Positions 20,539 through 46,907 of a DNA stretch of 64,000 nucleotides are shown piece by piece (the stretch's first letter is position 1; every line of letters begins with the position of its first letter). The notes beneath the pieces were generated by a model. The model worked only from the letters and a program-made list of their open reading frames with translations. It did no database searches and was not told the DNA's origin. Location of the stretch: positions 935,001 to 999,000 of the forward strand of contig NZ_JACHNC010000001.1 in assembly GCF_014205215.1 (NCBI RefSeq). Direction: 5' to 3'. Origin of the DNA: Actinoplanes lobatus (lineage in GTDB: Bacteria; Actinomycetota; Actinomycetes; Mycobacteriales; Micromonosporaceae). The translations under genes and the position numbers were made by a program.

Positions 20539-20901
20539 ATGACGACTCAGCGACGGGCGGTCGGCGCGTACGGCGAACGACTGGCCGCCCGGCACCTCCA
20601 GGACAGCGGCCTGATCCTGCTGCAACGCAACTGGCGCTGCGCCGACGGCGAGGTCGACCTGATCCTGCGCGACGGCGACGACCTGGTCTTCTGCGAGGTG
20701 AAGACCCGCCGCACGGCGACCTTCGGTCCACCGGCGGCCGCGGTGGGTCACCGCAAGGTGCTCAGGTTGCGCCGGCTGGCGGCCCGCTGGCTGACCGAGA
20801 CGGGGGTACGGGGAGGAAGCGTCCGTTTCGACGTGGTGGAGGTCATGCCGCAACCACGTGGCGCCGCCCGCCTCGTACACATCCGCGGGGCATTCCAATG
20901 A
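20539..20901 (+). CDS. UPF0102 / YraN-family nuclease-like protein
   Basis: 120 residues. The restriction-endonuclease-like fold is signalled by YGERLAARHLQDSGL, then GEVDLILRDGDDLVFCEVKTR, which contains the D...ExK-type residues of the family. The start is the ATG at 20539; the longer open frame upstream is antisense to rpsB. In actinobacteria yraN precedes comM and dprA, as here. Its stop overlaps, in an ATGA motif, the start of the 81-base repeat mini-ORF rather than comM itself. Function not established; a role in DNA uptake or repair is only suggested by context. Confidence 0.92.
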   Translation: MTTQRRAVGAYGERLAARHLQDSGLILLQRNWRCADGEVDLILRDGDDLVFCEVKTRRTATFGPPAAAVGHRKVLRLRRLAARWLTETGVRGGSVRFDVVEVMPQPRGAARLVHIRGAFQ

Positions 20902-20978
20902 GCGAGCTTGCGAGCGAATCATCCAGCTCAGTCATCAACTCATTGCGACGCCGGAGCGCAGCGGAGGTGGCGCAATGA
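20898..20978 (+). repeat. 81-bp mini-ORF repeat, copy 1 (26-residue peptide, ATGA-coupled on both sides)
   Basis: Begins with ATGAGC overlapping the yraN stop and ends with ATGAGC overlapping the comM start, so both borders are ATGA stop/start overlaps. In between is an uninterrupted reading frame for a 26-residue Ser/Arg/Ala-rich peptide starting MSELASES and ending RRRSAAEVAQ. A copy with 77 of 81 identical bases lies at 46827-46907 on the opposite strand, also exactly between two coupled genes. Whether the peptide itself matters or the frame only preserves translational coupling is open. Confidence 0.9.
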
Positions 20979-22510
20979 GCTACGCCCGGGTGCTCTGTGT
21001 CGGGCTCGCCGGGGTCGCCGGTCACCTCGTCGAGGTCGAGGCCGACCTCTCCACCGGCCTGCCCACGCTGGCCCTCACCGGCCTGCCCGACACCGCCCTC
21101 AACGAGGCCCGCGACCGGGTCCGGGCCGCCGTGGTGAACTCCGGCCGGGACTGGCCCAACCGGCGGATCACGGTGAACCTGCTGCCCGCCGCCCTGCCCA
21201 AGCACGGCAGCTCCTTCGATCTGGCGATCGCCGCGGCGGTGCTGGCCGGGGCCGGTGAGCTGCCGGCGGCGCCGCTCGACCGGGTCGTGCTGCTCGGCGA
21301 GCTCGGTCTCGACGGCACGGTGCGACCGGTACGCGGCGTGCTGCCGATGGTGGCCGCGGCCGCCCGGGCCGGGATCACGCGCGTCATCGTGCCGGCCGGC
21401 AACGCGCGGGAGGCGACCGTCGTACCGGGCGTCACCGTGCGGGCCGTCGACACCCTGCACCGGCTCGTCGAGTTCGCCCGGGGCGAGGCGGCGCTGCTCG
21501 ATCCGCCGCCCGCACCGGAGACGACCGAGCCGCCCGGCCCCGACCTGGCCGACGTGGCCGGTCAGGAGATCGGCCGGTACGCCCTGGAGATCGCCGCGGC
21601 CGGTGGCCACCACCTGGCCCTCTTCGGCCCGCCCGGCTCCGGCAAGACGATGCTCGCCGAGCGGCTCCCGTCCATCCTCCCGGAGCTCGACGACGACGCC
21701 GCCCTCGAGGTCACCGCCCTCCAGTCGATCGCCGGGATGCTGCCGCCGGACGGGCGACTGGTCCGCCGGCCGCCGTTCCAGGCGCCACACCACAGCTCGT
21801 CACTGGCGGCCCTGGTCGGCGGCGGCTCCGGGCTGGTCCGGCCGGGCGCGCTCAGCCTCGCCCACCGGGGCGTGCTCTTCCTCGACGAGGTGCCCGAGAT
21901 GAGCCGCGGCACGCTCCAGGCGCTCCGGCAGCCCCTGGAGAGCGGACGGGTGGTGCTGTCCCGGGCCCGCGGCACCACCGAGTACCCGGCCCGGGCACAG
22001 CTGGTCGTCGCCGCGAACCCGTGCCCCTGCGCCAGCCCCGCCGGGGACCACGCCTGCCAGTGCACGCCCCTGGTCCGACGCCGCTATCTGGGCAAACTGT
22101 CCGGGCCGCTGCTGGACCGGATCGACATGAAGATCAACCTGCTGCCGGTGCGGGCCGCCCAGCTGACCGTCGCGACCGAGCCCGCCGAGCCGTCCACGGC
22201 CGTCGCGGCCCGGGTGGCCCGTGCCCGTACCGCGGCCGCGGCCCGGTGGGCGACCGGCGGCTGGCGGGTCAACGCCGAGGTCCCCGGGCACCGGCTGCGG
22301 CGGCCACCGTGGCGACTGCCGGCCCGGGACACGGCCGTGCTGCACGACGCCCTGGAGATCGGGGTGCTGTCGGCGCGCGGCTTCGACCGGTGCCTGCGGT
22401 TGGCCTGGACCATCGCCGACCTGGACGGGCGGGACCGGCCCGCAGTGGGGGACGTCTGTGAGGCGTACCAGCTGCGCATGGGCGAGCCCACCACCCGCGC
22501 CGCCGCCTGA
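20975..22510 (+). CDS. comM: ComM/YifB-family Mg-chelatase-like AAA+ ATPase
   Basis: About 511 residues. N-terminal Lon-protease-like domain (GLPTLALTGLPDTALNEARDRVRAA, then NLLPAALPKHGSSFDLAIA). Central AAA+ module with Walker A GPPGSGKTML at residues 217-226 and Walker B VLFLDEVPEM. The Cys-rich loop NPCPCASPAGDHACQC and sensor region KLSGPLLDRIDM follow, then a C-terminal Mg-chelatase-type helical domain. ComM is a hexameric helicase promoting branch migration during natural transformation in Vibrio. The start ATG at 20975 lies in the 3' end of the repeat mini-ORF. Part of the yraN-comM-dprA group. Confidence 0.93.
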   Translation: MSYARVLCVGLAGVAGHLVEVEADLSTGLPTLALTGLPDTALNEARDRVRAAVVNSGRDWPNRRITVNLLPAALPKHGSSFDLAIAAAVLAGAGELPAAPLDRVVLLGELGLDGTVRPVRGVLPMVAAAARAGITRVIVPAGNAREATVVPGVTVRAVDTLHRLVEFARGEAALLDPPPAPETTEPPGPDLADVAGQEIGRYALEIAAAGGHHLALFGPPGSGKTMLAERLPSILPELDDDAALEVTALQSIAGMLPPDGRLVRRPPFQAPHHSSSLAALVGGGSGLVRPGALSLAHRGVLFLDEVPEMSRGTLQALRQPLESGRVVLSRARGTTEYPARAQLVVAANPCPCASPAGDHACQCTPLVRRRYLGKLSGPLLDRIDMKINLLPVRAAQLTVATEPAEPSTAVAARVARARTAAAARWATGGWRVNAEVPGHRLRRPPWRLPARDTAVLHDALEIGVLSARGFDRCLRLAWTIADLDGRDRPAVGDVCEAYQLRMGEPTTRAAA

Positions 22511-45510: not shown

Positions 45511-45875
45511 AAGGTCCAGCGTGAGTTGAGCACGTAGTTGACCACCGGGATGAGGAACAGGGCGACGGCCTGGACCACCGGATAGGGGCCGCCCAACAGC
45601 TCCGCGCCGGTCCACAGGACCGCGGTGTTCAGGGCGAGGGCGGCTGCCGTGACCGCGAGGAACCGCGGCGCGGTGCTCGTGTGCGCGGTGCCGGACCGGA
45701 AGACCCAGGTCCGTTGCAGCAGGTAGGACACGGCGACGCTGGCCGCGAACCCGGCCGTGGAGGCGGGCACCGCGGGCAGCCCGAGACCGATTCCGGCCAG
45801 GCCCACCGTGAAATGGGTGAGGGCGCTCAGCCCACCGCTCACGCCGTAGCGGAACAGCCGGTCAACGTTCGGCAC
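45504..45875 (-). CDS. GtrA-like four-helix membrane protein
   Basis: 123 residues. GtrA/DPMS family: LFRYGVSGGLSALTHFTVGLAGI, four transmembrane helices, and the conserved end VNYVLNSRWTF. Members are thought to flip or bind polyprenyl-linked sugars. GTG start lies 14 bases inside the end of the GtrB-type gene upstream, so the two are coupled; together they look like a polyprenyl-phosphate sugar module. Confidence 0.9.
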   Translation of the reverse strand: MPNVDRLFRYGVSGGLSALTHFTVGLAGIGLGLPAVPASTAGFAASVAVSYLLQRTWVFRSGTAHTSTAPRFLAVTAAALALNTAVLWTGAELLGGPYPVVQAVALFLIPVVNYVLNSRWTFA

Positions 45876-46830
45876 GCTGCTCGACCACCAGGCGTTCGGC
45901 GATCTCCGGCGCCCCGGTGCGCTCCTGGACCAGGTAGCGGGGCCGGGCGCGGACCTCGTCGTGGATGCGGGCCAGGTACTCGCCGATCACGCCGAGGCCG
46001 ATCAGCACGAACGTCCCGGTCACCAGCAGCAGCAGGATGACCGTGGTGAAACCGGCGACCGAGCCGCCGCTGATCCACCGGACCAGCGTCTGTACGCCGA
46101 GAACCGCGGCGAACACCGCGAACGCCAGCCCGGCCAGCGTGACCATGTGCAGCGGGGCCGAGGTGAACGAGGTCAGCCCGTTGACGGCGAGCCGGAACAG
46201 CCCGCGCAGGGTCCACCGGGACGCCCCGCCCTCCCGGTGGTCGATGTCCACCTCGACGGTGGCCCGGGTGAAGCCGATCCAGCTGCTGGTGCCGCGGAAG
46301 AAGGTGGAGTGCTCGGGCATCCGCCGCAGCGCCTCCACGGCCGGGCGGCCGAGCAGCCGGAAGTCGGTGGCGTCGACCAGGTCGACCTGGGTGAGCCGGG
46401 TGAAGGCGCGGTTGAAGAGCCGTGACCCGAGCCGGTTGCCGAGGCCCTGTCCGGCCCGGTTGCGTTTCACCGCCTCGACCACGTGCGCGCCGTCCTGCCA
46501 GCGGCGGACCATGGCCGGGATGGCCGACGGCGGATGCTGGAGGTCGGAGTCGATCACCACGACCGCGTCGCCGGCGGCGTGTTCGAGGCCGGCCAGCAGC
46601 GCCGCCTCCTTACCGAAGTTGCGGGACAGCCGCAGCCCGCGGACCCGTGGGTCGACCAGCGCACAGTGGGCGATCCGGGACCACGAGTCGTCGGACGAGC
46701 CGTCGTCGATCAGGACCAGCTCGTAGTCGAGGGCGGCGTCGCCGAGCACCTCGGCGAGCCGGGCCACGAACCGGTCGACGCCCGCGCCCTCGTTGTAGAT
46801 CGGCGCGATCACCGACACCAGCGGGCTCAT
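45862..46830 (-). CDS. GtrB/DPM1-type GT2 glycosyltransferase with two membrane helices
   Basis: 322 residues. GT-A domain: VSVIAPIYNEGAGVDRFV, VLIDDGSSDDSW, and the DxD-type VVIDSDLQHPPSAIPAMVRRW; RDFRLL-type ATDFRLLGRPAVEAL. Two C-terminal transmembrane helices (LHMVTLAGLAFAVFAAVLGV and TTVILLLLVTGTFVLIGLGVIGEYLARI), the hallmark of polyprenyl-phosphate glycosyltransferases such as GtrB. Expected to make undecaprenyl-phosphate-glucose or a similar donor. The ATG at 46830 is inside the repeat mini-ORF. Confidence 0.92.
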   Translation of the reverse strand: MSPLVSVIAPIYNEGAGVDRFVARLAEVLGDAALDYELVLIDDGSSDDSWSRIAHCALVDPRVRGLRLSRNFGKEAALLAGLEHAAGDAVVVIDSDLQHPPSAIPAMVRRWQDGAHVVEAVKRNRAGQGLGNRLGSRLFNRAFTRLTQVDLVDATDFRLLGRPAVEALRRMPEHSTFFRGTSSWIGFTRATVEVDIDHREGGASRWTLRGLFRLAVNGLTSFTSAPLHMVTLAGLAFAVFAAVLGVQTLVRWISGGSVAGFTTVILLLLVTGTFVLIGLGVIGEYLARIHDEVRARPRYLVQERTGAPEIAERLVVEQRAER

Positions 46831-46907
46831 CGCGCCACCTCCGCTGCGCTCCGGCGTCGCGATGAGTTGATGACTGCGCTGAATGATTCGCTCGCAAGCT
46901 CGCTCAT
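46827..46907 (-). repeat. 81-bp mini-ORF repeat, copy 2 (26-residue peptide, ATGA-coupled on both sides)
   Basis: Same element as 20898-20978, on the opposite strand and 77/81 identical. Its ATG overlaps the TGA of the polytopic membrane protein gene, and its TGA overlaps the ATG of the GtrB-type gene. Peptide starts MSELASES and ends RRRSAAEVAR; the four base differences change four residues or fewer and none breaks the frame. See copy 1. Confidence 0.9.

Follow-up and report, generated by a model that had tools for sequence, protein, structure and literature searches.

A MIRU-like 81-bp repeat, very probably a mobile mini-cistron, at coupled gene junctions of Actinoplanes lobatus

A complete mini-ORF between yraN and comM

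The junction between yraN and comM in Actinoplanes lobatus holds a short repeat that is, very probably, a non-autonomous mobile element of the MIRU type: a portable mini-cistron that would have spread recently, be crossed by ribosomes through re-initiation, be moved by an enzyme supplied from elsewhere and have an arm of its hairpin matched to its target. The 81-bp stretch, counted from ATGA to ATGA, consists of a 77-bp unit plus the ATGA that it shares with its surroundings. In the window, that is, the whole 64,000-nucleotide stretch of DNA that was analyzed, the relevant features are the following.

20539..20901, + strand: yraN, UPF0102 family (PF02021), the upstream gene
20898..20978, + strand: element copy 1, 81 bp from ATGA to ATGA, a mini-ORF of 26 codons plus TGA
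20898..20901, + strand: left ATGA, 4-nt overlap of the yraN stop TGA and the mini-ORF start ATG
20939..20979, + strand: 3' hairpin, arms 20939-20952 and 20966-20979
20963..20967, + strand: GGAGG, Shine-Dalgarno-like, 7 nt 5' of the comM start
20975..20978, + strand: right ATGA, 4-nt overlap of the mini-ORF stop and the comM start
20975..22510, + strand: comM-like gene of the Mg-chelatase family (ChlI/Mg-chelatase domains), the downstream gene
45862..46830, - strand: glycosyltransferase family 2 gene (PF00535), downstream of copy 2
46827..46907, - strand: element copy 2, 81 bp, 95% identity over query positions 1-81

Copy 1 (window 20898-20978; ATGAGCGAGC...GCGCAATGA) translates into 26 residues and a stop. 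A preliminary description of this DNA had recognized in it a complete mini-ORF of 26 open residues with ATGA overlaps on both sides, together with a 77/81-identical second copy, and both observations hold, the second copy lying at 46827-46907 on the minus strand, 5' of the family 2 glycosyltransferase gene. The ends had been given as ATGAGC; ATGA is indeed present at both ends, but the unit stops there, and the following GC occurs in most copies, not all. An Rfam search over 20800-21100 gave no match up to E 1.

Copies and their placement in the A. lobatus genome

BLAST of the 81-mer against its own genome (G000) returned at least 53 matches, with 40 of 80 candidates scored, and a covariance model, R1, for which 150 candidates were scored, returned 78 matches with E values no higher than 0.1, 69 of them of the 81-bp type. 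Seventy-seven of the 78 R1 matches were read, the 29-bp partial match at 5400884 being left out, and they amount to 77 units at 61 sites, some of which carry 77-bp tandem arrays. The repeat thus extends beyond the two loci of the window, a count that the preliminary description had proposed as a check. The same description had held that frame breakage at neutral rates would speak against its reading; 67 of the 77 units are exactly 81 bp long, with the 26-codon frame open throughout. Coupling is exact at the end of 72 of the 77 units and off in 5. Shorter coupled units also occur (four of 57 bp and one of 60 bp), and the off-pattern units comprise one of 80 bp (2504343), one of 82 bp (4934496), remnants of 53 and 59 bp, and an ill-defined partial unit (7499151) that was left out of the site counts. 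Codon changes within the mini-ORF of 66 units number 152 synonymous and 272 non-synonymous, versus 119 and 293 expected, and the peptide itself seems little constrained, with weak conservation. The four 57-bp units (L036, L084, L085, and L086) have a spacing of 53 bp and 18 codons, the same spacing as that of published 53-bp MIRUs.

The preliminary description had further suggested examining whether copies elsewhere sit at coupled gene junctions, and they do. On the upstream side, a long frame overlaps the ATGA at 56 of the 61 sites, and at 1 the overlap is 1 nt; the remaining cases are 2 stops starting 8-9 nt before the ATGA and 2 sites with no upstream frame by the criteria used. A gene follows downstream at 59 of 61 sites, the other 2 being weak. 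For comparison, of the 257 ATGA in the window, counted on both strands with the element's own ends included, 9 lie at a coupled junction when judged by identical gene criteria. The distance from ATG to ATG is 77, or 3 x 26 - 1, so every unit preserves the 4-nt overlap on both sides. Across genera and families, the spacings found (53, 65, 74, 77, and 80) are all -1 mod 3; the published 51- and 54-bp MIRU units are not. The junction pattern may result either from a choice of target or from the loss of bad insertions.

Empty sites in a relative

Comparison with a close relative, G019, whose ComM is 98% identical to that of the window, bears on mobility. Flanks of 54 A. lobatus sites were queried in G019 and gave 40 matches, with 39 sites paired on both sides and 15 of the 54 left without a pair. 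At 34 of the 39 paired sites, the element is missing from G019, which has a single DTGA in its place; gain is polarized against loss by further relatives at only one of these 34, yraN-comM. The flanks of the empty sites are mostly 92-99% identical in G019. Copies are present in both genomes at the other 5 sites (G000:C1:203589, 2155294, 6258398, 8214878, and 8521558); two of the G019 copies have shrunk to 51 and 65 bp, and the five are older insertions in decay.

What the preliminary description had inferred from two copies, namely, that the element inserts at stop/start overlaps and regenerates them, holds insofar as the junctions are coupled, the frame is kept and most sites are empty in G019 (34/39). 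The plain duplication of an ATGA target that it had envisaged does not. In G019, the 34 empty sites read ATGA in 25 cases and GTGA in 9, and in A. lobatus both ends of the element are ATGA at every one of these sites. Moreover, the three bases to the left of the element, -1, -2, and -3, differ between the two genomes in 11, 12, and 12 of the 34 sites (32-35%), against a background of 58 differences in 1,360 positions (4%) further out, from -60 to -21. At element-free control junctions, a small set of 16, the same three positions differ in 1, 2, and 3 cases, positions further out in 15 of 480, and the start letters of A. lobatus and G019 are A/A in 9, G/G in 6, and G/A in 1. On the downstream side, the first base differs at 8 of 34 sites, with a downstream background of 64 in 1,564; an excess of change at this base is not proven, since counts of 8-10 of 34 are likewise attained at the third positions of subsequent codons, and 2 of the 16 control junctions also differ there.

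The yraN-comM junction itself is free of the element in all 29 relatives compared. Rather than the single clean ATGA expected there by the preliminary description, the empty junction is mostly TTC TGA TG, with a 1-nt overlap. As 20 of the 29 relatives read TTCTGATGAG and none carries the element, it is A. lobatus that changed TG to CA.

Similarity of the left flank to the element's right end, as would follow from copying, is weak: identity is 24/48 at -1 (p 0.016) and 23/48 at -2 (p 0.005), with no signal at -3 and -4. Sharing of the left base -1 between copies declines with their distance, from 0.54 (distance 0-5) to 0.42 (6-8), 0.30 (9-12), and 0.23 (13-20). Since this base is common to close copies, a donor base may travel along with the element.

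A covarying hairpin matched to the target

An inverted-match scan of the element revealed the 3' hairpin, a left junction with a 79% match to the inner arm of that hairpin, and 6-nt matches. The hairpin has 13 pairs, with 96% of cells paired and 5 of the 13 pairs changed on both sides, and its covariation of 0.245 exceeds the value for shuffled alignments (0.117; reached by 0 of 500 shuffles) and that obtained when the pairing is slid (at most 0.052). Both the GGAGG, which lies 7 nt before the downstream ATG and is invariant in all 52 aligned last units, and the downstream ATG itself are inside the hairpin. When folding was compared with shuffles, the 101-nt RNA as a whole did no better (z -0.15), and the hairpin alone, folded as DNA, reached z -2.79.

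The outermost pair joins base 42 of the element to the first base outside it; in copy 1, these are C at 20939 and G at 20979, the latter within codon 2 of comM. Among 52 copies, the pair is C-G in 40, G-C in 6, T-A in 2, and A-T in 1, and it is unmatched in 3. The 49 matches compare with a permutation mean of 34.1, and none of 20,000 permutations reached 49. Units other than 81 bp were left out of this count and of the left-flank-copy and nearest-neighbor counts, as was the degenerate unit 1742501, which was likewise left out of the codon counts and kept as unmatched in the G019 comparison. In other genomes of the same genus, 16 of 19 copies are matched (L339 left out), a flanking C facing G in 4 of 5. 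The 19 of 20 found in a second genus are uninformative, all 20 targets being ATGAG. A broader set spanning all families gave 43 of 64, with an arm that the script picks poorly in degenerate copies; it leaves out 11 of the 29 mycobacterial places, those that hold no complete 69-bp unit, together with L099, L133, and L197, which are degraded or of odd length. Most of the 69-bp mycobacterial units are unmatched, and so are those of G270, with a stem that ends earlier. Read by eye, the 69-bp units with GTGA at both ends have a CAC arm in 5 of 5 cases (at most four independent sites), those with ATGA at both ends have a CAT arm in 12 of 12, and the one mixed unit, L244, has CAT.

How the match arises can be addressed with the G019 comparison. 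There is a serious case, if not one that we would favor, for quasi-palindrome correction, whereby, once the element has inserted, template switching would rapidly repair mismatches between the arms in one direction or the other. All six empty G019 sites with DTGAC are matched in A. lobatus, three through a G in the element and three through a G replacing C in the flank, as such correction would produce. It accords less well with a mid-stem position (48-76) that stays unpaired in 21 of 52 copies, with the two flank substitutions of seven that lead away from the match (3932647 and 8635482; the other five match, and one site, 4808038, has a gap), and with the changes in the left flank, which it leaves without explanation.

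We consider it somewhat unlikely that the outer pair reflects selected RNA structure only, a closed hairpin masking the start codon better and either side mutating later. Covariation of the stem, both within the genome and across families, agrees with such selection, and unfolding features among the established models of translational coupling (PMC12548453). The pace of matching is the difficulty: 31 of the 34 copies absent from G019 are already matched, and changes at base 42 are dispersed among the A. lobatus copies, the nearest neighbor having the usual C in 7 of 9 (one a tie), both of which are fast for selection.

A more specific proposal, which we advance tentatively, is that the 5' arm of the hairpin pairs, as a guide, with the target's start codon plus one further base (DTGAN), and that insertion replaces the target D and a few flanking bases. 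If true, guidance by pairing would mean a novel insertion chemistry for an element of the MIRU type residing in translational overlaps across the order of mycobacteria.

Two further observations concern individual positions. Near element base 22, a left GTGA tends to occur with C and a left ATGA with T (GAACCA versus GAATCA; L112, L155, L117, L219, L227, L235, and L238), with exceptions in G095, L128, and the inner units of A. lobatus; base 22 is possibly a second start-codon match. At site G000:C1:4808038 (L057), the downstream frame has only 46 codons, and the one-base gap relative to G019, right after the ATGA, is perhaps a frame-breaking change.

Relation to MIRUs and other known elements

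MIRUs are a standard tuberculosis typing marker, and their target is written DTGA in the letter code; they were described as lacking obvious dyad symmetry, and we know of no account of how they move. The preliminary description knew of no described mobile element that behaves like the present one, but mycobacterial MIRUs do: according to PMC12548453, which cites Supply 1997, they appear mobile, insert at start codons, and have an ORF coupled at -4 nt. In two further papers, unit lengths are given as 77 bp for MIRU4 and 53, 51, and 54 bp for others (PMC8803872), and 77-bp repeats are placed between senX3 and regX3 (PMC9392950). The present element shares with MIRUs (Supply et al. 1997, Mol Microbiol 26:991) its short dispersed units of 77 and 53 bp and tandem arrays, its internal ORF coupled at -4 nt (72/77 units, 56/61 upstream overlaps), and its mobility at start codons (34 empty G019 sites, ATGA 25 and GTGA 9). 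It differs in extending to further genera and families within the order and in having a covarying hairpin that holds the start codon and a target-matched base. Within the order, the family of the window genome is not that of the PE-rich genomes, and since its host lies outside the mycobacteria, the element is MIRU-like rather than a MIRU by name, a likeness drawn from published descriptions. A literature search covering titles and the starts of abstracts, with few subscription papers, found no such repeat outside mycobacteria among the papers listed. The kind of element is already known; within that literature, no account was found of its occurrence beyond mycobacteria, of a covarying hairpin, or of a match to the target.

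Other short elements are more distant. MITEs have inverted termini and duplicate their target; the present repeat resembles them in being short, numerous, and without a gene of its own for movement, whereas the inverted-match scan found no inverted repeat pair at its two ends, and its 4-bp repeat is unfaithful to the target (GTGA in G019 versus ATGA at 9 of 34 sites). Rickettsia palindromic elements are short repeats inside genes whose reading frame stays open after insertion; the frame is kept here as well, but in a separate ORF between genes. REP/RAYT and IS200/IS605 elements combine a hairpin, a short target, and base pairing to the target, and the present element likewise has a hairpin, a short target, and a base complementary to the target side. 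Movement as a REP-like element by a Y1 transposase (IS200/IS605, RAYT-type), with guide bases and single-stranded DNA transposition, would therefore suit its hairpin end, its short fixed target, and an internal base complementary to the one beside the target, and A. lobatus does have IS200-type transposase genes, some fragmentary (G000:C1:7151369, 7989186, 7171992, and others). We nevertheless judge it improbable. Y1 genes show no association with the element in 14 genomes: of the 7 that bear it, 3 have a Y1 match and 4 have none, although a Y1 partner may have been lost from these, and of the 7 that do not bear it, 3 have a match. No element-like piece accompanies the 12 loci read among the 25 Y1 matches listed, and the element has a coupled open frame, whereas we know of no REP elements that are coding units. 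Finally, that these are ancient intergenic repeats lost from relatives is very hard to credit, for although G019 also has a copy at 5 of the 39 sites and the 33 empty sites other than yraN-comM were compared with G019 alone, 0 of 29 relatives carry the element at yraN-comM and many closely similar copies stand beside unrelated genes.

We return to a mobile mini-cistron, which would have spread recently. By analogy with coupling models (PMC12548453), ribosomes finishing the upstream gene would re-initiate on the mini-ORF, whose translation would open the hairpin ahead of re-initiation on the downstream gene, and insertion would be tolerated owing to this re-initiation across the element. An enzyme not encoded by the element presumably moves it, and the hairpin arm would come to match the target as the element inserts or shortly afterwards. 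No such enzyme was found. A genus in which similar copies number in the dozens, with a close relative that offers 34 clean empty sites, makes MIRU movement testable without a pathogen. It also provides a natural experiment on translational coupling, repeated many times over, in which dozens of different genes are each preceded by one and the same cassette that brings its own Shine-Dalgarno-like site and hairpin.

Distribution across the order

The 81-mer was detected in at least 13 of 59 relatives besides its own genome, all of the same genus, and R1, at E up to 0.001, matched at least 40 of the order's 297 other genomes; both searches scored 15 candidates per genome. These 40 comprise 37 from one other genus of the same family, with mostly 84-bp units and a spacing of 80, and genomes from two further genera of that family and one other family. 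The genome from the other family has 78-bp units, and G198 has a degraded 82-bp unit (L099). A second model, R2, built from 56 diverse copies, uncovered 84-bp units in G095 (best E 1.8e-7), from a family that includes PE-rich genomes. Judged from sequence, units of 69-84 bp are present across several genera of the order. Plasmids and phages gave no blastn match to the 81-mer, and viral contigs no exact match to a 24-base core of it. The exact published MIRU4 primer hit 12 unrelated records among named genomes, none of them M. tuberculosis, and of the places to which a primer search for senX3 led in 198 Mycobacterium-like genomes, with 2 mismatches allowed, 8 were read by eye, none showing senX3-regX3 and most having one unrelated gene in common.

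A pattern derived from the mycobacterial matches of R2 occurs at 29 places in 10 of 60 genomes of probable Mycobacterium, of which 18 are 69-bp units with a spacing of 65, one is of 54 bp, and the rest are shorter. Shorter forms, such as 33-bp units, read in frame into the downstream gene. By eye, these forms of about 27-36 bp, tandem in G339, have no stop and constitute an N-terminal extension of the downstream gene (L222, L224, L225, L226, L229, L230, L232, L234, L237, and L240 near 1501).
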